Assembly: GCA_022644775.1 (NCBI GenBank)
Contig: JALCHN010000021.1
Span: 1-32,799, forward strand
Reading direction: 5' to 3'
Source: Eggerthellaceae bacterium
GTDB taxonomy: Bacteria; Actinomycetota; Coriobacteriia; Coriobacteriales; Eggerthellaceae
DNA: 32,799 nucleotides
This document shows, piece after piece, positions 10,235-25,456 of the stretch; the first letter of the stretch is position 1; every line of letters begins with the position of its first letter. Made by a program: the position numbers and the translations under genes. The notes beneath the pieces are model-generated. The model saw only the letters and a list, made by a program, of their open reading frames with translations. It was not told the origin of the DNA and searched no databases.

Positions 10235-10981
10235 CTACGCCGAAAGCGCCGCCCCGATCGCGCCCGCCCAGCGCGCTTCGGGCCGCGTGCGCACGGGCGC
10301 GCCCAGGGCCGCCGCCAGGCGCTCGACCACGTAGGCGTTGTCGCACAGGCCGCCGGTGAGGAAGTAGGCGTCGGCGGGCAGCTTGCCGGCGAGGGCCGCC
10401 ACGCGGGCCGCAATCGACTCGATCACACCGCTCGCGATGTTTTCGGCCGGCTCGCCCTGGCCCACGAGCGAGATGACCTCGCTTTCGGCGAAGACCGTGC
10501 ACATGTTGGAAATGGGCGCCGGACGCCCCGCGCGCGCCAGGTCGGCGAGCTCGTCTTGGGTGACGCCCATCCGGTTGGCCATGACTTCCAAGAACTTGCC
10601 CGTGCCCGCAGCGCACTTGTCGTTCATGAGGAACTTGACCACGCGGCCGCCCACGAGCCTGATCGTCTTGGTGTCCTGCCCGCCCACGTCGACCACCACG
10701 CCGTCGGGGCCGAACAGGTAGGCGGCCCCGCGCCCGTGGCAGGTGATTTCGGTCACCGTGCGGTCGGCGTAGGGCACCGCCACGCGGCCGTAGCCGGTGG
10801 CCACCATGCGGCTGTTGCCCGGCGCGTAGCCCCGCTGGGCGAGCTCGTCTTTCACGCGGGCCGCCACCTCGGCGCTGTTGAAGCCCGTGGGCAGAAGCAG
10901 AGTGCCCGCCAGCTCGTCGCCTTCGAGCACCGCCACCTTGGACGCGGTGGACCCTATGTCGATTCCGATACGTGCCGTCAT
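10235..10981 (-). CDS. Acyl-CoA dehydratase activase (CoA-substrate-specific enzyme activase, HgdC/DCCR-like)
   Basis: A 248-residue ASKHA-fold ATPase that, in its family, holds a [4Fe-4S] cluster between two subunits and injects a low-potential electron into a dehydratase-type partner upon ATP hydrolysis. Visible motifs are GIDIGSTASK (6-15), TGYGR (62-66), TEITCHGRGA (77-86), VVDVGGQDTK (96-105) and NDKCAAGTGKFLE with C123. CTVFAESE with C161 follows; C123 and C161 are the expected cluster ligands. Near the end comes FLTGG. The open frame reaches 11047, but ATG 10981 with GGGGAAG upstream removes a 22-residue extension that would overlap the DUF3343 gene. It is last in the leftward operon, 10 bp after DUF3343, and is the likely reductase for the double-cubane-type protein at 13354-14628. 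Confidence 0.93.
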   Translation of the reverse strand: MTARIGIDIGSTASKVAVLEGDELAGTLLLPTGFNSAEVAARVKDELAQRGYAPGNSRMVATGYGRVAVPYADRTVTEITCHGRGAAYLFGPDGVVVDVGGQDTKTIRLVGGRVVKFLMNDKCAAGTGKFLEVMANRMGVTQDELADLARAGRPAPISNMCTVFAESEVISLVGQGEPAENIASGVIESIAARVAALAGKLPADAYFLTGGLCDNAYVVERLAAALGAPVRTRPEARWAGAIGAALSA

Positions 10982-10991
10982 CTCTTCCCCT

Positions 10992-11243
10992 TTATGCGTA
11001 CAAATCCACCGTGAACACGCCCTCGTGCGGCAGGTCGTTGGCCGCAAGGGCGGCGCGCAGGGCGGCCTCCGCTTCGGCAGGCGCCGCCCACGCCATTCCG
11101 CATCCCGCCGAGATCTCGGAGGGCACGGGAATGATGCGCCCGGGCATCCCCTGGTCCCGGGCGGCCATCTCGCATTCGGCCGCGTCGTCGAGCGACGAGA
11201 ACGTCACCACGACGTGCGGCTTCTTCACGCGCGCGTTCCTCAT
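10992..11243 (-). CDS. DUF3343 putative Se/S carrier-like small protein (copy 2)
   Basis: An 83-residue cytosolic protein of the DUF3343 family. It starts HVVVTFSSLDDAAECEMAAR and contains the signature PSEISAGCGMAW with conserved C48. DUF3343 proteins have a small alpha/beta fold and regularly travel with YedF, class V desulfurases and dehydratase-like proteins, hence the proposed role as a sulfur or selenium carrier; this is inferred from association. Its ATG overlaps the desulfurase stop codon (ATGA), so the two are translationally coupled. It diverges strongly from the second DUF3343 protein at 13049-13354, which has CC where this has GC. Confidence 0.87.
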   Translation of the reverse strand: MRNARVKKPHVVVTFSSLDDAAECEMAARDQGMPGRIIPVPSEISAGCGMAWAAPAEAEAALRAALAANDLPHEGVFTVDLYA

Positions 11244-12388
11244 AGCAGCTCCCCGGCGTTCGCGCGCAGGGCCTCGATGCCCTCGTCGATCTCCTCTTCG
11301 GCAGTAAACGACGAGAAGCTGAAGCGCACGGCCCCCTGCCGTTCGGTGCCCAGGGCCCGGTGCATGAGCGGGGCGCAGTGGGCGCCCGCCCGCACGCAGA
11401 TCCCATAGTCGCGCGCCAGGGCATCGGCCACGATCGCCGCGTCGACGCCGCCCACGTTGAGCGCCACGATCCCGCAGCGCTCGCGGGTGGCGTGTCCGCC
11501 CAGCACGGTGACGCCCGGGATGGTGCGCACGCCCGCCTCGAAGCGGTCTGCCAGGGCGCCTACCTGCTCGTGCAGGGCTTCCACGCCCTTGCTCTCTATA
11601 TAGTCGAGCCCCGCCGAAAGGCCGGCGAGCCCGTGGGCGTTGGGCGTGCCCGCCTCCAGATGCTCGGGATACATCGCGGGCTGGCGGCGGTCGTAGCTGT
11701 GCACGCCCGTGCCGCCCTCTCGGTAGGCGGGCAGGTCGACGCCGGGCGCGACGACCGCGCCGCCCGTGCCCTGCGGGCCGTAGAGGCTCTTGTGGCCGGT
11801 GAAGCAGACCACGTCGAGCGCTTGGGCCTGCATGTCGATCGGTACCAGGCCCGCCGTCTGCGCCGCGTCGACCACGAGCAGGGCCCCGTGGGCATGGGCG
11901 ATGCGGGCGAGCGCTGCCACGTCGTAGACGTCGCCGGTGAGGTTGCTCGCATGCGTGACGACCGCGACCTTGGTGGCGGGCGTGAAGGCGGCGTCGAAGG
12001 CGGCAAGGTCGAGGCTCGCGTCGGGCGCTATGGGCACGACGGTCACGTCGACCCCCTCGCGGTCCTGCTTGCGAAAGAGGGGCCGCAGCACGGAATTGTG
12101 CGAGGCCGCCGTCGTCACCGCCGCGTCGCCCGGGCCCAGCAGCCCGTCGATCACCGCGTTCAGGGCGTCGGTCACGTTGAGCCCGAAGACCACCCGCTTG
12201 GCGTCGGGGGCGTTGAACAGGCGCGCGACCTGCTTGCGCGTCTTGTGGATCGTCATCCCGGCGTCGAGCGAGGCCTCGTGCACGCCGCGGCCCGCTCCCC
12301 CGAACGAATCGATGGCGGCGGCCACGGCGCGGGCCACTTCGGGCGGCTTGCGCATCGTGGTCGCCGCGTTGTCGAAGTAGATAGCCAT
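11240..12388 (-). CDS. Class V aminotransferase, cysteine desulfurase/selenocysteine lyase-like
   Basis: A 382-residue PLP enzyme expected to take sulfur from cysteine (or selenium from selenocysteine) as a persulfide/perselenide. It opens with YFDNAATT and has ASHNSV with the PLP-stacking H97. D174 lies in VVDAAQTAG, the Schiff-base lysine K200 in FTGHKSLYGPQG, and the catalytic cysteine C338 in RAGAHCAPLMH. The RAGAHCAP loop places it with the SufS/CsdA-like group II family rather than NifS/IscS. No SufBCD or SufU genes are near; its neighbours are the YedF-like carrier 7 bp upstream and DUF3343 overlapping downstream. This suggests a dedicated delivery role rather than general Fe-S assembly. 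Start ATG has GGGGGA upstream. Confidence 0.92.
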   Translation of the reverse strand: MAIYFDNAATTMRKPPEVARAVAAAIDSFGGAGRGVHEASLDAGMTIHKTRKQVARLFNAPDAKRVVFGLNVTDALNAVIDGLLGPGDAAVTTAASHNSVLRPLFRKQDREGVDVTVVPIAPDASLDLAAFDAAFTPATKVAVVTHASNLTGDVYDVAALARIAHAHGALLVVDAAQTAGLVPIDMQAQALDVVCFTGHKSLYGPQGTGGAVVAPGVDLPAYREGGTGVHSYDRRQPAMYPEHLEAGTPNAHGLAGLSAGLDYIESKGVEALHEQVGALADRFEAGVRTIPGVTVLGGHATRERCGIVALNVGGVDAAIVADALARDYGICVRAGAHCAPLMHRALGTERQGAVRFSFSSFTAEEEIDEGIEALRANAGELL

Positions 12389-12395
12389 GATCCCC

Positions 12396-12983
12396 CTACG
12401 GACGAACGACTACGCCGGCTTCCAGCTGCTTCTGGGCGATCACGTACATGTTGGTGACGCCGCCCACGGCCAGCTTGTCGGTCCAGTCGTGGAAGGCCAG
12501 GCAGGTGCCGCAACTCAGGATCTCGACGCCCGCGTCGGCGAGCTTCTGCAGGTCTTCGAGAACCGGCGAGCCTTCGGTGGTGAGCTTCACGCCGTCGTTG
12601 AAGAAGAGCAGAGTGTCGGGCAGGACGTCCTGCTGGGTGAGCGAGAAGACGAAGGCGCTCATGAGCTTGGCGCCGAGCTCGTCGTCGCCCTCGCCCATGA
12701 CGGCCTTGCCGAAGGCGACCACGCGGGTGCCGGCCGAAGCGGCGGGCTCGGCGACGGCGGACGCCTCGGTCTTCTTCAGGAGCACGTGGAAGGTGCCGTC
12801 GCCGGCATCTTCGACGGTGGTCTCGCACTTCAGATCACGCCCGAGGTTCTCGAGGTTGTGCATGGCGGTTTCGTTGTCCACGATCATCTCGACCGTGCCT
12901 TCGTCGATCGTGCCGAGGGCCTTCTTGGCGCGCACGACCGGGATCGGGCACTCCTGGCCCGTTGCGTCGATAGTCAGTTCCAT
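12396..12983 (-). CDS. yedF: YedF-like selenium metabolism protein (TusA domain plus DsrE-like domain)
   Basis: A 195-residue two-domain protein. Residues 1-75 are a TusA/SirA sulfur-carrier domain with the CPxP motif (ECPIPVVRAKKAL, persulfide cysteine C12). Residues ~90-195 are a DsrE/DsrF-like domain (RVVAFGKAVMGEGDDELGAKLM, LFFNDGVKL) with a conserved SCGTC at 157-161. This architecture is that of TIGR03527, annotated as selenium metabolism protein YedF, usually near selD and yedE; neither occurs in this window. The frame is open upstream to 13406, but ATG 12983 begins the TusA fold and has AAAGGA ten bases upstream. It lies between DUF3343 copy 1 (65 bp away, with a hairpin between) and the desulfurase (7 bp). 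Confidence 0.9.
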   Translation of the reverse strand: MELTIDATGQECPIPVVRAKKALGTIDEGTVEMIVDNETAMHNLENLGRDLKCETTVEDAGDGTFHVLLKKTEASAVAEPAASAGTRVVAFGKAVMGEGDDELGAKLMSAFVFSLTQQDVLPDTLLFFNDGVKLTTEGSPVLEDLQKLADAGVEILSCGTCLAFHDWTDKLAVGGVTNMYVIAQKQLEAGVVVRP

Positions 12984-13010
12984 GCGGATGGTTCCTTTCT
13001 CTTGGGAGTA

Positions 13011-13035
13011 GGGGCCGCCCAAGGCGAGCGGCCCC
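13011..13035 (-). other. Intra-operon hairpin between DUF3343 and yedF
   Basis: A perfect 8-bp stem, GGGGCCGC at 13011-13018 and GCGGCCCC at 13028-13035, lies in the 65-bp gap between DUF3343 copy 1 and yedF. There is no U-tract, so it more likely stabilises or attenuates the mRNA than ends it. It is the largest gap inside an otherwise overlapping operon. Confidence 0.5.
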
Positions 13036-13048
13036 TGCTCGCAGTGTA

Positions 13049-13354
13049 CTAGCAATAGCGGTCGCGGCGCGCGTCCAACTGGCGCGGCAGAGGCACCACG
13101 CCCTCCACCGCGATATCCGACCGACGGGCCACGTCGAGCACGGAGCGCACCTGGTCGCGGCCCACGAGCAGCGACACGCCGCAGCAGGCCTGCGTGGCGC
13201 GCGGCGTGGGCGTGATACGGGCGGTAAGGCCCGCCGCCCGCGCCGCTTCGTGCAGATCGAAGGCCGCTTCGTGGTCGGGCATGAGCACGTAGCAGTCGAT
13301 CGGCTCGCCGGGATGCGCCCGGACGACGTCGGCGATGCGCTCGTCGATACGCAC
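13049..13354 (-). CDS. DUF3343 putative Se/S carrier-like small protein (copy 1)
   Basis: A 101-residue protein recognisable as DUF3343 from CYVLMPDHEAAFDLHEAAR followed by ARITPTPRATQACCGVSLLV. The usual single cysteine is here a vicinal pair (C57-C58), and the protein ends in a further C-terminal Cys (C101). GTG 13354 is the probable start: it overlaps the TAG of the upstream double-cubane gene (TAGTG). The longer open frame to 13714 runs antisense-framed through that gene and is not coding. Tight coupling to the double-cubane protein suggests it serves that enzyme. The function is inferred from association; the family assignment is fairly sure. Confidence 0.82.
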   Translation of the reverse strand: MRIDERIADVVRAHPGEPIDCYVLMPDHEAAFDLHEAARAAGLTARITPTPRATQACCGVSLLVGRDQVRSVLDVARRSDIAVEGVVPLPRQLDARRDRYC

Positions 13355-14628
13355 TAGCCCAGCATCTCCACGAAGGCCTCGACGCGGGTGCGCAGCTGGC
13401 CGGCATCGTTGTCGGTGTAGTCGGTCTCGATGTCGAGCACGGGGATGCCCGCGTCTTCGAGCGCCTTTTCGAGCGCCGGCGCCTCGGTCTTGAAGGTGGT
13501 GCAGAACTTGAGGTTGGTGTTGATCACGCCGTCGACCTGGTAGTCGCGCGCCAGCTCGAGCACCTCGTCGATGCGGGCGCGGTTGGGCGTGAAGCAGGCG
13601 CAGTTGATCTTCATGTAGCGCTCGGCCAGGGCGCGGAACTGGCCCTCGAGCGTGGTCTGGGTGTCGTCGACCAGGTTGCGGAAGAACTTGGTGCCCGTGC
13701 AGTTCTCCTCGCAAACGATCGCCGCGCCGCTCGTCTCGATGATGTGGTGCAGCTTCCAGTTGGGGATGGCCAGCGGCGTGCCCGTGAGCAGGATGCGCTT
13801 GGTGCCGGCCGGGAACACGCTCACGCCGTCGCGCAGGCGCTCCTCGAGTTCGCAGGCAAGCTTGTTGGCCATCTGGGTGCAGCGCTCGGGGTCGTCGAAG
13901 AAGGCAATCTGCATCATGAGCAGAGCGTCAGTGCCCGAAATGGGAATGACGTCGGGGTTCTTGCGCGTCTCGTAGACGCGGGCGAGGGCCCGGCGACGGG
14001 CGTTGATCACGTCGATCGCGTGGGCGAGATTTTCGGCCGTGAGCTCGACGCCGGTTACCTCCTGGACGTTCTGCGCGAAATCGGCGATCTCGCTCGCCCA
14101 GAAGTCGATGTCCTTGGGGCGCTTCATCTGGGGCGTTTCCATGATGTGCATGGGCACGTCGGTGGCCATGATCTCGTACATCTTCTTCTTGCCGTCGCAG
14201 GTGGTCTCGCCCACGATTTCGTCGACGAGGCGGAAGAAGGGGCAGGTGCGGCCCATGCGGGCGCCGAGCGAGGCCTTGACCAGGGGGCACACGTCGTTCT
14301 GCAGGTACTTCTCGCCTTCGGGAACCCAGAATTCCGAACCGCCGCACAAACCCGTGACGATGCCGTTGCAGGCGATGACCACTTCGTCGGGCACGTAGGT
14401 GCAGAAGGTGCCGAAAACCTTGCGGCCCTTCTTCTTCTCTTCCACGAGCTCGGCGGGGCGGATGCCGTGCACGTCGGCGGCGACCATGTCCCAGAAGGCC
14501 ATGCCCTCGGGACGCATCTTCTGCGTGAGGAACACGTCGCCGAACGCGGCGGGAAGCGCTTCGCACAGCTGGTCGTGCGCTTCGAGGTCCATGCCTAGGT
14601 CTTTCCACATCGGATGACGATCGACCAT
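13354..14628 (-). CDS. 2-hydroxyacyl-CoA dehydratase family protein, double-cubane-cluster type
   Basis: A 424-residue iron-sulfur protein of the HgdB/FldC/BcrC superfamily (PF06050). Six cysteines cluster in the N-terminal third: C76 (GTFCTYVPDE), C87 (IACNG), C95 (TGLCGG), C114 (NDVCP), C129 (RTCPFF) and C144 (ETTCDG). Further ones occur in ENCTGT, INCACF and LKFC. It ends with the family signature IETDYTDNDAGQLRTRVEAF. A single-subunit, cysteine-rich member next to a lone activase matches the double-cubane cluster proteins (DCCP), which carry an [8Fe-9S] cluster and reduce small molecules such as acetylene in ATP-dependent fashion. The natural substrate is unknown. ATG 14628 has GGAG nine bases upstream. 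It is first in the leftward operon. Confidence 0.87.
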   Translation of the reverse strand: MVDRHPMWKDLGMDLEAHDQLCEALPAAFGDVFLTQKMRPEGMAFWDMVAADVHGIRPAELVEEKKKGRKVFGTFCTYVPDEVVIACNGIVTGLCGGSEFWVPEGEKYLQNDVCPLVKASLGARMGRTCPFFRLVDEIVGETTCDGKKKMYEIMATDVPMHIMETPQMKRPKDIDFWASEIADFAQNVQEVTGVELTAENLAHAIDVINARRRALARVYETRKNPDVIPISGTDALLMMQIAFFDDPERCTQMANKLACELEERLRDGVSVFPAGTKRILLTGTPLAIPNWKLHHIIETSGAAIVCEENCTGTKFFRNLVDDTQTTLEGQFRALAERYMKINCACFTPNRARIDEVLELARDYQVDGVINTNLKFCTTFKTEAPALEKALEDAGIPVLDIETDYTDNDAGQLRTRVEAFVEMLG

Positions 14629-14976
14629 GTTGCTCTCCTTCTCGCGCGTGCCCTTCGGTTGCCCGGCGAGGCGAGGCCCCGGGACGGGCGTCGCGGGCGC
14701 GCGTGCTATCGATTGGATTGATCGTTGCGTTGCAGAATGGGTGCGTGCGGCGAGGCAGAATGCCGCAGGGCGAGCGAGCGCACGGGCGGGCGGCGCATCG
14801 GAAAGGCAGAATCGACGGCCGCGGGCGCCGGAAGCGCTCTTTACCACTATATCGCAGGCCGCGCGCGTCCAACGCAAGGGTTTTCCCGTAAGAGCGCCAA
14901 GTCCGAAGGCGCGCGGCGCGTGCACGGGGACCGCGACTGCGTTAGTATGCATTACTTAGCTTATCGAAAGGTTTCC
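14629..14976. promoter_or_regulatory. Divergent control region between the two dehydratase-like operons
   Basis: A 348-bp gene-free region that must hold promoters for both operons. A minus-strand TATAGT (14846-14851) and a plus-strand TAGTAT (14943-14948) are the best -10 candidates, but neither has a good -35. Three plus-strand copies of GCAGAAT occur at 14732-14738, 14755-14761 and 14806-14812, a possible operator motif. The composition is very GC-rich outside 14835-14855 and 14940-14975. No small gene is convincing here. Confidence 0.45.
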
Positions 14977-16260
14977 ATGAACGTCGTTTCCCTGTTCGGC
15001 CGGCTTGTGGGTGAGCAAGCCGCGACCAACCCCGAAGGCGCGCGCAAGATCCTGCTGGCCGGATACGCCGCCCAGCAGGCCAAGCTCTCCGTCGCCCCCA
15101 ACCCCCGCTTGCCCAAGAGCCGCCAGCGCATCGCGGTCGACACGATGAAGCTCGTGCGGAACGCCCTCGACCATCCCGAAACCGCCGCGGCCACGAGCCT
15201 GTTCACCCCCACCGAGTTCCTGCACACGGCCGGCGTGACCCCCTATTCGGTCGAGGTCATCTCCGCGTTTCTGGCCGGGACCCAGTGCGAGCAGTACTGG
15301 CTGCGCGACGCCGAGCAGGCGGGCTTCCCCGAAACCCTCTGCAGCTACCACCGCACCTTCCTGGGCGCGCTCGAATCGGGCATCCTGCCCCAGCCCAAGT
15401 CGATCGTCTACACCAACATCGCCTGCGACGGCAACATGGTCACTTTCCCCCATGCCGAAGAGGCCTTCAACGTGCCCGCCTTCTTCATCGACGTGCCCTG
15501 GGAGCACAGCGAGGATTCGGTGGCCTTCGTAGCCGACCGCCTGCGCCAGCTGCCCGAGTTCGTGGGCGACGTGCACGGCACCGCCCCCACCGACGACGAC
15601 CTGTCGCGCTGCCTGGTGCGCGAGCAGCGCTGTGCGGCCGACTACGGCCACTACCTCGACATGCAGCCCACCCGCTACCTCGCCAACGACATGACGAGCG
15701 AGATGTACGCGATGGTCGCCCTGCGCGTCATGCTCGGCTCCGAGCTTTCGGAATCCTTCGCGCGCCGCCTCGCCGCCGAAATCGACGCGGCCCCCGAAGC
15801 CGACGGCCTGCGCCTCGTGTGGATGCACGTCATCCCCAACATGCTGCCGCCAATCGTGTCGGCGTTGAGTTTCAACGACCGCGCCTACATCGCCGCGACC
15901 GACATCATCGTCGACGGGCTCGCCACCCCGATCGACCCCGCAAAGCCCTACGAGACGCTCGCCCGCCGCATGGTCTACAGCGCCTACAACGGCTCGACCG
16001 ACCTGCGCATCGAGCGCGCGCTCGACCTGTGCCGGCGCACCCATGCCGACGGCGTGGTCTACTTCGCCCACTGGGGCTGCAAGATGACCTTGGGCGCCGC
16101 CCACCTGGCCAAGACCGCGATCGAGGACGCTGGCTACCCCTGCCTGGTGCTCGACGGCGACGGCTGCGATAGGGTGAACACGAGCGAGGGCCAGGTCGCC
16201 ACCCGCCTGAACGCCTTCCTCGAACTGCTCGAAGCCCGTCGCGCGGAACAGGAGGCCTAA
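14977..16260 (+). CDS. 2-hydroxyacyl-CoA dehydratase family protein, large (A/HgdA-like) subunit
   Basis: A 427-residue member of the same superfamily as 13354-14628 but clearly divergent. The family blocks are SLFTPTEFLHTAGVTPYSVE, ETLCSYHRTFLGALE (C122), VYTNIACDGN (C150) and, near the end, VVYFAHWGCKMTLGAAHLA (C368). C122, C150 and C368 are likely [4Fe-4S] ligands. It ends with DGDGCDRVNTSEGQVATRLNAFLELLE. ATG 14977 has AAAGG six bases upstream. It is followed at zero spacing by the fusion protein gene, so the two probably form a heterodimer. It acts in the cytosol; the substrate cannot be read. Upstream in-frame Met codons exist but lack ribosome-binding sites. Confidence 0.87.
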   Translation: MNVVSLFGRLVGEQAATNPEGARKILLAGYAAQQAKLSVAPNPRLPKSRQRIAVDTMKLVRNALDHPETAAATSLFTPTEFLHTAGVTPYSVEVISAFLAGTQCEQYWLRDAEQAGFPETLCSYHRTFLGALESGILPQPKSIVYTNIACDGNMVTFPHAEEAFNVPAFFIDVPWEHSEDSVAFVADRLRQLPEFVGDVHGTAPTDDDLSRCLVREQRCAADYGHYLDMQPTRYLANDMTSEMYAMVALRVMLGSELSESFARRLAAEIDAAPEADGLRLVWMHVIPNMLPPIVSALSFNDRAYIAATDIIVDGLATPIDPAKPYETLARRMVYSAYNGSTDLRIERALDLCRRTHADGVVYFAHWGCKMTLGAAHLAKTAIEDAGYPCLVLDGDGCDRVNTSEGQVATRLNAFLELLEARRAEQEA

Positions 16261-17901
16261 GTGACCGTCATCTACACCTGCAAGTACGCCCCCGTCGAGC
16301 TGTTCGCGGGCTTCGGCGAGACCTGCGCCCCCTTCGACGACGCGCCCGAAGACTTCGCGGCCGCCGACGAGTTCGTCCACCCCAACCTGTGCGGCTTCGG
16401 CAAAGACGTCGTGCAGAAGGCCCTTTCGGGCGCGATCGACCAGCTCGTTCTGGTGAACTGCTGCGACACCAACCGCCGCGTCTTCGACATCGTGAAGGCG
16501 TCGGGGAAATGCCGCTTCGTCTACCTGCTCGACCTGCCCCACTGCGCCGACGCCTGCGCAATCGACCGCTTCGCCTTCGAGCTCGGCAAGCTCGCGCGCG
16601 CCTACGCGGCGTTTTCGGGCAAGGCCTTCAACGCAACCGCCTTCCGCGCCGCCTTCGCTCCCCAGCCGCCCGTCGACTACGACTACGTGGGGCTCGTGGG
16701 CGTGCGCGCCAACCACTACACCGAACAGGTGGTGCAGGCCGCCCTGTCGCTTCCCGTGCGCAACCTCACCTGCACGGGCCTGCGCAGCGTGGCGCCCTTA
16801 GACGACGCCGAAGACGAGGACGCCCTCTTTTCCGCCTACGCCGCCTCCCTGCTCGGCCAGATTCCCTGCGCCCGCATGGAGCGCACGGGCGGTCGGCGCC
16901 AAATCCTCGCCGACCCGCACCTGACCGGCATCGTCTACCACACCCTGCGCTTCTGCGACTACTACGCCCCCGAAGGGGCGCGCTGGCACGCGGCGGCCCA
17001 GGTCCCCTTCCTCCAGATCGAAAGCGACTACACCAAATCGGGCAGCGAGCAGCTTCGCACGCGCGTCGAAGCGTTCGCCGAAGAGCTCGAGGGCGCGCAG
17101 AAGAAAGGCCCCGCCATGACCATCACCGAAGACACCCTCGTCGCCGGCATCGATTCCGGCTCCACTTCTACCGACGTCGTCATCATGAACGGCAAGCGCG
17201 AAATCGTGGCGAGCGCGATCATCCCCACCCGGGGCAGCGCGAGCGCGAGCGCCGAGCGCAGCCTGCAGGAAGCCCTCGACCAGGCGGGCATCCCGCGGAA
17301 GTCGATTGCCGCCGTCGTGGCCACCGGCTACGGGCGCGACGCGATCGGCAGCACCGACAGCTCGGTGACCGAAATCACCTGCCACGCCAAGGGCGCCCAC
17401 TACCTGAACCCCCAGGTGCGCACGATCGTCGACATCGGCGGCCAGGACAGCAAGGCCATCGCCGTCGACGAGCACGGCAACGTGACCTCGTTCGCGATGA
17501 ACGACAAGTGCGCCGCGGGCACGGGCCGGTTCCTGGAGATGATGGCCCGCACCCTGGGCGTCGAGCTCGCCGAGATGAGCACCCTGGGCGCCAAAAGCGG
17601 GCACGCCGTGTCCATTTCGAGCACCTGTTCGGTCTTCGCCGAAAGCGAGGTCGTCTCGCTCGTGGCCAACGACATGCCCCTGCCCGACATCGTCGCGGGC
17701 CTCAACCGGTCGGTCGCCCGCCGCACTGCGGCCCTTGCCAAGCGCGTGGGCGTCAACGACACCTGCATGATGACCGGCGGCGTGGCCAAAAACGAAGGCG
17801 TCGTGCGCGCGATCGAGGAGGCCATGGGCCATGCGCTCGTGGTGGACGACCGCGCCCAGCTGGCCGGCGCCATCGGCGCGGCCCTGTTCGCCCTCGCCTA
17901 A
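16261..17901 (+). CDS. Fusion of 2-hydroxyacyl-CoA dehydratase small (B/HgdB-like) subunit with its activase
   Basis: A 546-residue fusion. Residues 1-275 are a compact dehydratase-type subunit: IYTCKYAPVELFAGFG (C7), VHPNLCGFGKDV (C44), LVNCCDTNRRVFDIV (C67-C68), YHTLRFCDYYAPE (C232) and IESDYTKSGSEQLRTRVEAF. It is about 100 residues shorter than usual. Residues 287-546 are a complete activase: AGIDSGSTSTD, ATGYGRD, TEITCHAKGA, IVDIGGQDSK, NDKCAAGTGRFLE (C417), TCSVFAESE (C456), MMTGGVAKNEG. The GTG start has AGGAGG five bases upstream and follows the preceding TAA directly. An internal ATG (17116, residue 286) sits behind AAAGG, so free activase might also be made. In the families these are normally separate polypeptides. 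Confidence 0.88.
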   Translation: MTVIYTCKYAPVELFAGFGETCAPFDDAPEDFAAADEFVHPNLCGFGKDVVQKALSGAIDQLVLVNCCDTNRRVFDIVKASGKCRFVYLLDLPHCADACAIDRFAFELGKLARAYAAFSGKAFNATAFRAAFAPQPPVDYDYVGLVGVRANHYTEQVVQAALSLPVRNLTCTGLRSVAPLDDAEDEDALFSAYAASLLGQIPCARMERTGGRRQILADPHLTGIVYHTLRFCDYYAPEGARWHAAAQVPFLQIESDYTKSGSEQLRTRVEAFAEELEGAQKKGPAMTITEDTLVAGIDSGSTSTDVVIMNGKREIVASAIIPTRGSASASAERSLQEALDQAGIPRKSIAAVVATGYGRDAIGSTDSSVTEITCHAKGAHYLNPQVRTIVDIGGQDSKAIAVDEHGNVTSFAMNDKCAAGTGRFLEMMARTLGVELAEMSTLGAKSGHAVSISSTCSVFAESEVVSLVANDMPLPDIVAGLNRSVARRTAALAKRVGVNDTCMMTGGVAKNEGVVRAIEEAMGHALVVDDRAQLAGAIGAALFALA

Positions 17902-24719: not shown

Positions 24720-25241
24720 CTAGGCAGCGGGCTTCTGTTCGGCAACCTGGCTGATTGCCTGCGCCAGACCCTGCGGCACGCCGTTGATCGTAACGGCAAG
24801 ACCGCGCGCCACACCTGCGATAGCAGCTGCGATGGAAGCGTAGAGCTCTTCGCGGGAAGGCAGAGAAGCGATAGCCTCGACCTGCGCTGCGTCGTACTCG
24901 ACACCGTCCATGATGCCGCCGCGGATCTCGAGATTCTCGTTATCCTTGGCGAAGGTCTTCAGGGCCTTCGCAGCGGCAGCAGGATCGCCATCGGCGAACA
25001 CGAAAGCGTTCGGGCCGTCGAGGATGTCTTCCATCGTCGGCTGGCCGGCTTCGCTGAGGGCCAGCTTCACCAGGGTGTTCTTGTAGACCACCATGTGCGC
25101 GCCGGCCTCGCGGATGTCGCGACGGAGCTGCTGGACTTCCTTCACGGTCAGGCCGCGATAGTCGACAACCCACAGCGCGGAGACACCTTCGAGCTCCCCT
25201 TTGATCTTTTCCAGGGTTTCCTTGTTCTGAGCGTTGGGCAT
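24720..25241 (-). CDS. rplJ: 50S ribosomal protein L10
   Basis: A 173-residue protein that anchors the L7/L12 dimers to 23S rRNA and represses its own operon through the leader. Conserved blocks are ALWVVDYRGLTVKEVQQLRR, VVYKNTLVKLAL, NAFVFADGDPAAAAKALKTF and a long C-terminal helix that binds L12. ATG 25241 is chosen: a perfect AAGGAGGT sits seven bases upstream. An in-frame TTG eight codons earlier would bury that site in coding sequence. rplK and rplA, often upstream, are absent here. Confidence 0.98.
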   Translation of the reverse strand: MPNAQNKETLEKIKGELEGVSALWVVDYRGLTVKEVQQLRRDIREAGAHMVVYKNTLVKLALSEAGQPTMEDILDGPNAFVFADGDPAAAAKALKTFAKDNENLEIRGGIMDGVEYDAAQVEAIASLPSREELYASIAAAIAGVARGLAVTINGVPQGLAQAISQVAEQKPAA

Positions 25242-25299
25242 GTAGTACACCTCCTTCTTTTCCAAAACGGGTTCCGCCCCAAGGGAGGATCGCGTCTTG

Positions 25300-25337
25300 A
25301 AAAAGAAACGACCTCCTGCCGGACAGCAGGAGGTCGT
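25300..25337 (-). terminator. Attenuator terminator in the rplJ leader
   Basis: Minus-strand 12-bp perfect stem (25326-25337 with 25308-25319, loop 6 nt) followed by a U-rich run (TTTCTTTTT, complement of 25300-25308). It lies between the rplJ promoter and start codon, so it must be conditional. The upstream segment GAGGTGGTTC (25359-25368) can pair with GAACGACCTC (25330-25339) in the 5' stem arm, 9 of 10 positions, as an antiterminator. Confidence 0.85.
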
Positions 25338-25456
25338 TCAAAGCTCAAAGCGTTATCTGAACCACCTCGGCAGGCCGCTTGCGCGATTAAACCCGAACGG
25401 GTGCCGGCTGTCTTTGGCAGCGGAACTATTCCACTCATAGGCCGCATTTCTGCAGC
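25308..25456 (-). ncRNA. Ribosomal protein L10 leader (autoregulatory mRNA element)
   Basis: The transcript from ~25456 to the attenuator holds the family's hallmark small stem GCTGCCAAAGACAGC (complement of 25407-25421), a later CCTGCCGAGGTGG block and the terminator/antiterminator pair. By established knowledge of L10 leaders, excess L10(L12)4 binds this RNA and favours termination. Identification rests on the motif, on the position directly upstream of rplJ and on the visible alternative pairing. Confidence 0.78.

Follow-up and report, generated by a model that had tools for sequence, protein, structure and literature searches.

Within a window of 32,799 nt (contig JALCHN010000021.1 of assembly GCA_022644775.1, from an Eggerthellaceae bacterium; by the window we mean this whole stretch of DNA), we found that six genes read leftward from 14628 to 10235 form a selenium cluster. 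In order, these genes encode a single-subunit double-cubane cluster protein (DCC), a DUF3343 protein, YedF, a class V desulfurase, a second DUF3343 protein and an activase. We consider it likely that this gut-bacterial operon is a module for assimilating selenium that acts before SelD, with DCC and its activase as the low-potential reductant, and that the divergent gene pair beside it is a separate system.

The presence of DCC was closely tied to that of SelD in our surveys, which covered 148 Coriobacteriia genomes, 243 Clostridia genomes, 50 genomes of named DCC loci and 14 control genomes, together with 80 DCC loci. Among Clostridia, all 34 genomes with DCC had SelD, compared to 26 of the 209 without DCC (Fisher P = 2e-25; genomes in the co-occurrence panels are not phylogenetically independent and the counts ignore shared ancestry). 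SelD was also present in 50 of the 50 named-locus genomes, a set picked for DCC proteins at least 51% identical to that of the window and sharing three genomes (G155, G186 and G193) with the Clostridia panel. In Coriobacteriia, SelD occurred in 67 of 68 genomes with DCC above the cut-off, relative to 51 of the 80 others. DCC, DUF3343 and above-cut-off SelD were each detected in the same two control genomes, those of Escherichia coli and M. jannaschii.

DCC is also joined physically to selenium gene clusters. The original prediction called for a search of gene neighbourhoods, and co-occurrence was found: in the taxonomic order of the window's organism, DCC lay no more than 10 kb from YedF or SelD in 39 of 46 DCC genomes (chance, ~1% per gene pair). 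The cassette is retained, with the same or a shuffled gene order, by numerous genera in this family and order, and we found it joined to sel genes in relatives (L143, L110, L114, L151, L091 and L163). SelA and SelB of the window genome, used as queries, matched sel genes elsewhere. In a Coriobacteriaceae metagenome-assembled genome, SIG38 (L143), a single strand carries selA-selB-DCC-DUF3343-yedF-csd-DUF3343-activase-selD, and Clostridia loci have the orders yedF-selD-DCC-activase (L159-L161), DCC-activase-selD-csd-yedF-DUF3343-selB (L162) and selD-selA-selB-DCC-DUF3343-activase (L163). The suggestion that a double-cubane reductase and its activase are joined to selenium or sulfur carriers was thus upheld, with the leftward operon conserved as a unit in other genera.

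The window genome itself encodes SelD (365 bits) with an in-frame TGA, as well as SelA and SelB, all on contig C54. There, the SelD gene (149-1258 of locus L038, genome G000) is followed by selB, selA, fdhD and a gene resembling cytochrome c nitrite reductase; judging from the TGA, this SelD is probably a selenoprotein itself. We also noted a decayed DCC gene in genome G127 (L051, 4906-5465), broken into two short fragments in separate reading frames immediately ahead of an intact yedF-DUF3343 pair, with SelD nearby; thus DCC can be lost while selenium genes are kept. The other genes that recurred around the 80 DCC loci were mostly ones shared within a clade, such as an ABC (ATP-binding cassette) ATPase in 15 loci; in addition, a LysR-family regulator recurred in seven and a YedE-like sulphur transporter in three. 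With respect to a link to type I mlp clusters and methyl selenide, no methyltransferase family was recognised among these recurrent neighbours, part of which were run against Pfam.

The window DCC is a member of the double-cubane cluster protein family, and its cluster is predicted from the alignment. It matches the C. hydrogenoformans protein DCCP (6eno/7yyl) over its full length (454 bits, 47% identity), and its Cys76/114/144/310/343/376 align with DCCP and with the BzdN cluster ligands Cys36/73/100/263/293/327, all six being invariant across 13 aligned sequences. DCCP is an ATP-driven reductase of small molecules (acetylene, hydrazine and azide) with no established physiological role, and proteins of this type are the likely archetype of the benzoyl-CoA (coenzyme A) reductase/hydroxyacyl-CoA dehydratase family (PMC11971306). 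In Tissierellia and Synergistota loci, a 245-aa protein is encoded between the activase and DCC (L144, 8262-8999; also L138-L142); searches of Pfam and NCBIfam gave no match to it.

The trio DCC-activase-DUF3343 is also found in E. coli MG1655, as yjiM-yjiL-ytiA (L158, 3669-5872; MG1655 4563668-4565871). YjiM belongs to NF040772 (531 bits), and YtiA, which is annotated as uncharacterised and whose gene overlaps the end of yjiL, belongs to PF11823 (DUF3343/Se_S_carrier). In an independent expression study, the yjiLM genes fall in one iModulon with yedEF, ynjXYZABCD and ynjE, for which a link to molybdenum and selenium use was proposed (PMC7888660).

The carriers and the desulfurase of the operon have conserved cysteines as well. 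Cys58 of the DUF3343 protein that follows DCC (duf2) was kept in 70 of 70 sequences and Cys48 of the other (duf1) in 24 of 24, both proteins scoring above the PF11823 gathering cut-off of 25 bits; in YedF, Cys12 was kept in 34 of 35 sequences and the Cys158/Cys161 pair in 35 of 35. Lys200 and Cys338 of the desulfurase were invariant in all 57 sequences. Conserved cysteines in the desulfurase, the DUF3343 proteins and YedF fit a relay. YedF scores above the cut-off of the selenium-type family TIGR03527; the desulfurase falls below the curated cut-offs of TIGR01977 (374.3 vs 377 bits) and of the SclA model NF040779 (310.6 vs 525 bits). In Coriobacteriia, YedF and DUF3343 track SelD in 111 of 112 and 113 of 115 cases, respectively.

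Given how DCC tracks SelD, we find it most economical to suppose that DCC and its activase drive a difficult reduction in selenium supply. The desulfurase or selenocysteine lyase would take selenium (or sulfur) from selenocysteine (or cysteine) to form a persulfide-type adduct on Cys338, and the DUF3343 proteins and YedF would pass or hold it on their conserved cysteines. DCC, energised by its ATPase, would then supply a selenium step with electrons of very low potential. Most likely, this step would set selenide (HSe-) free by reducing a selenium compound that is oxidised, bound to a carrier or organic, and SelD would use the product to make selenophosphate for selenocysteine synthesis. Action on a selenium or sulfur substrate was one of two roles put forward in the original prediction, and is the one we favour; that DCC acts on selenium, on which substrate, and in what relay order are points that we infer.

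Several observations weigh against this proposal. SelD without DCC is common (51 of 118 Coriobacteriia and 26 of 60 Clostridia with SelD), which indicates that DCC is not essential to selenium use, and the tie is weaker in Coriobacteriia when counted by genus (34/35 vs 30/42, P = 0.004). One genome, G131 (L054, C14:18000-34000), has DCC and an activase and is the sole such genome surveyed without detectable SelD, YedF or DUF3343. Moreover, DUF3343 is not specific to selenium as a family, as 110 of the 183 Clostridia that lack SelD have it, and the desulfurase may be a cysteine rather than a selenocysteine enzyme, lying 3 bits under the TIGR01977 cut-off and well short of the SclA model. Co-occurrence with SelD is, in addition, silent on what DCC reduces. 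We considered DUF3343 as a marker of selenium use and rejected it, since most Clostridia that bear it lack SelD; Lin et al. 2015 (PMC5322559) likewise describe a family without a selenium-specific branch.

We considered that the carriers and desulfurase might instead serve DCC, by supplying or repairing the sulfur of its [8Fe-9S] cluster, including the bridging sulfide. The neighbourhoods are consistent with this idea: of the 80 named loci, 72 have a DUF3343 gene immediately 3' of DCC (two of the remaining eight end at or almost at a contig edge), the activase is near DCC in 63 and the desulfurase in 38, and E. coli retains the trio. However, 41 of the 148 Coriobacteriia have SelD, DUF3343 and YedF but no DCC, and DUF3343 is found in 168 of 243 Clostridia, compared to 34 of 243 for DCC; since carriers occur without DCC, they are not simply for building its cluster. 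Sulfur alone would also leave the near-restriction of DCC to SelD genomes (34/34 and 50/50) unexplained, and no desulfurase lies beside the E. coli genes. Thus we regard this alternative as unlikely, and the same counts speak against the original suggestion of carriers that build or modify the metal site. We also weighed a reading in which DCC, though free of selenocysteine, is a selenium enzyme in its own right, and the carriers, selenophosphate or both put selenium in its cluster, for instance as a bridging mu-chalcogenide. This would explain the need for SelD without a UGA codon in DCC, as well as the dedicated DUF3343 carrier after it, and a selenium-containing Fe-S cofactor would be a further SelD-dependent use of selenium, but we hold it to be very improbable.

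It is also possible, though quite unlikely, that DCC has no specific selenium role and serves strict anaerobes as a low-potential reductase of general use; SelD would then co-occur with it because both genes favour anaerobic fermenters and are transferred together. DCCP does reduce unrelated small molecules and lacks an established physiological role (PMC11971306), and G131 shows that DCC can occur without SelD. Against this, both genes are absent from the majority of the Clostridia panel, yet none of its genomes has DCC without SelD; DCC sits inside sel operons in several clades; and the related rightward pair, present in the SelD-negative genomes G051, G083, G089 and G131, is not tied to SelD. 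Finally, the carriers and desulfurase might serve SelD alone, with DCC and its activase an independent passenger that uses a product of a selenoprotein-related pathway. We give this little credence: while YedF and DUF3343 do track SelD more closely than they track DCC in Coriobacteriia, DCC stays beside the carriers in many rearranged orders and in several clades, and itself tracks SelD.

The two genes read rightward encode an HGD-D protein (two1) and, with zero gap, an HGD-D/activase fusion (two2), which the alignments predict to be a separate BzdNO- or HAD (hydroxyacyl-CoA dehydratase)-like radical enzyme with a built-in activase, probably dependent on a CoA ester. Cys122, Cys150 and Cys368 of two1 align with the BzdO [4Fe-4S] ligands Cys95/128/380 and were invariant in 15 of 15 sequences. 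Its structure model (predicted local distance difference test score, pLDDT, 92.6) matched HadB and BzdO with VIA-align Z scores of 36.2 and 33.9, respectively, fold scores that do not settle dehydratase vs reductase, and we assigned the class of the pair by the count of ligand cysteines rather than by fold ranking. All 13 aligned sequences kept the six ligand-type cysteines of two2 (7/44/68/171/203/232), which sets them apart from HadC and MbdN; HadC lacks equivalents of DCC Cys76 and Cys310, both of which two2 keeps. Fold matches of two2 were to the MbdQ/HgdC activases and to DCCP/BzdN. The pair thus has the cysteine pattern of the BzdNO type, a three-Cys [4Fe-4S] subunit with a six-Cys double-cubane subunit. 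In tests against the equivalog models, two1 scored 51.3 against 448.6 bits for TIGR03191 and two2 had no match to TIGR03190, and the HadBC models NF052455 and NF052456 gave 45.0 against 750 and 18.2 against 700 bits.

The two1/two2 pair is conserved in many Coriobacteriales, with the same order in the inspected loci (L199-L210), and some genomes have two copies of the two1-type first subunit. It occurs in SelD-negative genomes and, in G118, is separated from the selenium operon by ~1.1 Mb; adjacency to that operon was seen solely in the window's genus (L039). The pair is therefore best treated as a neighbour, and its closeness to the selenium operon is probably incidental. The idea that the two systems are packaged together was not supported, the pair being unlinked in other genera, and a single eight-gene package was rejected on this ground.

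As had been predicted, the stretch from 10235 to 17901 holds eight genes in two divergent operons, and family profile matches bear out the named families (Table 1). Neighbouring leftward genes either overlap, by 1 or 4 bp, or are spaced 65, 7 and 10 bp apart, an arrangement that fits one operon. The observation is far beyond chance, given the full-length family matches and the retention of the leftward gene set in other genera. An Rfam search of the operon, including the 348-bp intergenic region, gave zero matches. The eight genes lie between a WYL regulator gene and nrdD. Elsewhere in the window, on the minus strand (24720-25435), an ordinary ribosomal protein L10 leader (RF00557) is found directly upstream of an L10 gene.

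Table 1. Features of the two divergent operons and of the region between them (window coordinates)
Feature	Position	Strand	Evidence
Activase / DCCP reductase (HgdC/YjiL type, ATPase)	10235..10981	-	TIGR00241 234 bits, PF01869
DUF3343 (Se_S_carrier) duf1, Cys48-Gly motif	10992..11243	-	PF11823 67 bits
Class V pyridoxal phosphate (PLP) cysteine desulfurase / selenocysteine lyase, Lys200, catalytic-loop Cys338	11240..12388	-	PF00266 274 bits; TIGR01977 374.3
YedF: TusA domain (CPxP, Cys12) + DsrE-like domain (Cys158-x-x-Cys161)	12396..12983	-	TIGR03527 199.8 bits (cut-off 110)
DUF3343 (Se_S_carrier) duf2, type that follows DCC; Cys58-Gly motif + C-terminal Cys	13049..13354	-	PF11823 50 bits
DCC, single-subunit double-cubane cluster protein (DCCP/YjiM family), 424 aa	13354..14628	-	NF040772 477 bits (cut-off 350); PF06050
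Divergent intergenic region between the operons, 348 bp	14629..14976		Open reading frame boundaries
two1, HadB/BzdO-like catalytic subunit	14977..16260	+	PF06050 189 bits; BzdO alignment; structure model
two2, shortened BzdN/DCCP-like domain + C-terminal activase (Cys417, Cys456)	16261..17901	+	PF06050, PF01869, TIGR00241 263 bits

The window locus is an ordinary example of a cluster type that has already been described; the gene set, the placement of YedF and selenocysteine lyase beside SelD, and a provisional link between DCCP and selenium are all in print. What appears to be new is the near-absolute dependence of DCC on SelD in two classes, the constant pairing of DCC with DUF3343, and the recognition of YtiA. 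A full-text literature search for double-cubane proteins and selenium returned nothing else relevant, with the main DCCP papers (PMC5866592, PMC9351452) and Haft and Gwadz 2023 (PMC9879109) outside its scope; under the terms searched, dehydratase and DCC families are unmentioned in a study of selenium-regulated Methanococcus proteomes (PMC11097638) and in a paper on the C. difficile selenium-dependent molybdenum hydroxylase (SDMH) (PMC11448449). The tie to SelD, the E. coli K-12 trio and the DUF3343 partner make the question of the role of DCCP experimentally addressable in a model organism, and if the proposed role is true, bacterial selenium metabolism gains an ATP-driven low-potential redox step.

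In Slackia heliotrinireducens, Table 1 of Lin et al. 2015 (PMC5322559) lists an activase (Shel_25420), DUF3343 (25430), a selenocysteine lyase family protein (25440), YedF (25450), DUF3343 (25460) and a 2-hydroxyglutaryl-CoA dehydratase subunit (25470), the same six members as in the window and, by locus number, in the same order. SelD (Shel_25360), SelA and SelB are near that gene set in Slackia, whereas they are on another contig in the window genome; the Slackia dehydratase and activase are in the STRING table of that paper, whose available text gives a role for neither. YedF (TIGR03527) and selenocysteine lyase (TIGR01977) lie beside SelD in the orphan SelD/SDMH loci of Haft and Self 2008 (PMC2276186), but no double-cubane protein is noted there in the available text, and the window genome also has SelA and SelB. 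A 2023 preprint on type I mlp clusters (PMC10418091) has a dicubane cluster protein "provisionally linked to selenium metabolism", although those clusters are centred on methyltransferases and the link is unquantified in the part of the preprint available. The E. coli genes resemble the window in their DCC-activase-DUF3343 trio, but they have a shorter DCC subtype and no adjoining desulfurase, and SelD is elsewhere. As for the rightward pair, it shares its folds and an activase with BzdNO (8s02) and HadBC (3o3m), and with BzdNO the three-Cys catalytic and six-Cys subunits, but its six-Cys domain is shortened and fused to the activase and it falls below the equivalog cut-offs of both families. 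A close parallel to DCC is the DCCP/DCCP reductase system of C. hydrogenoformans, with full-length homology, all cluster cysteines kept and an activase in the operon; the window DCC sits in a selenium operon, whereas DCCP is without an assigned role in vivo.

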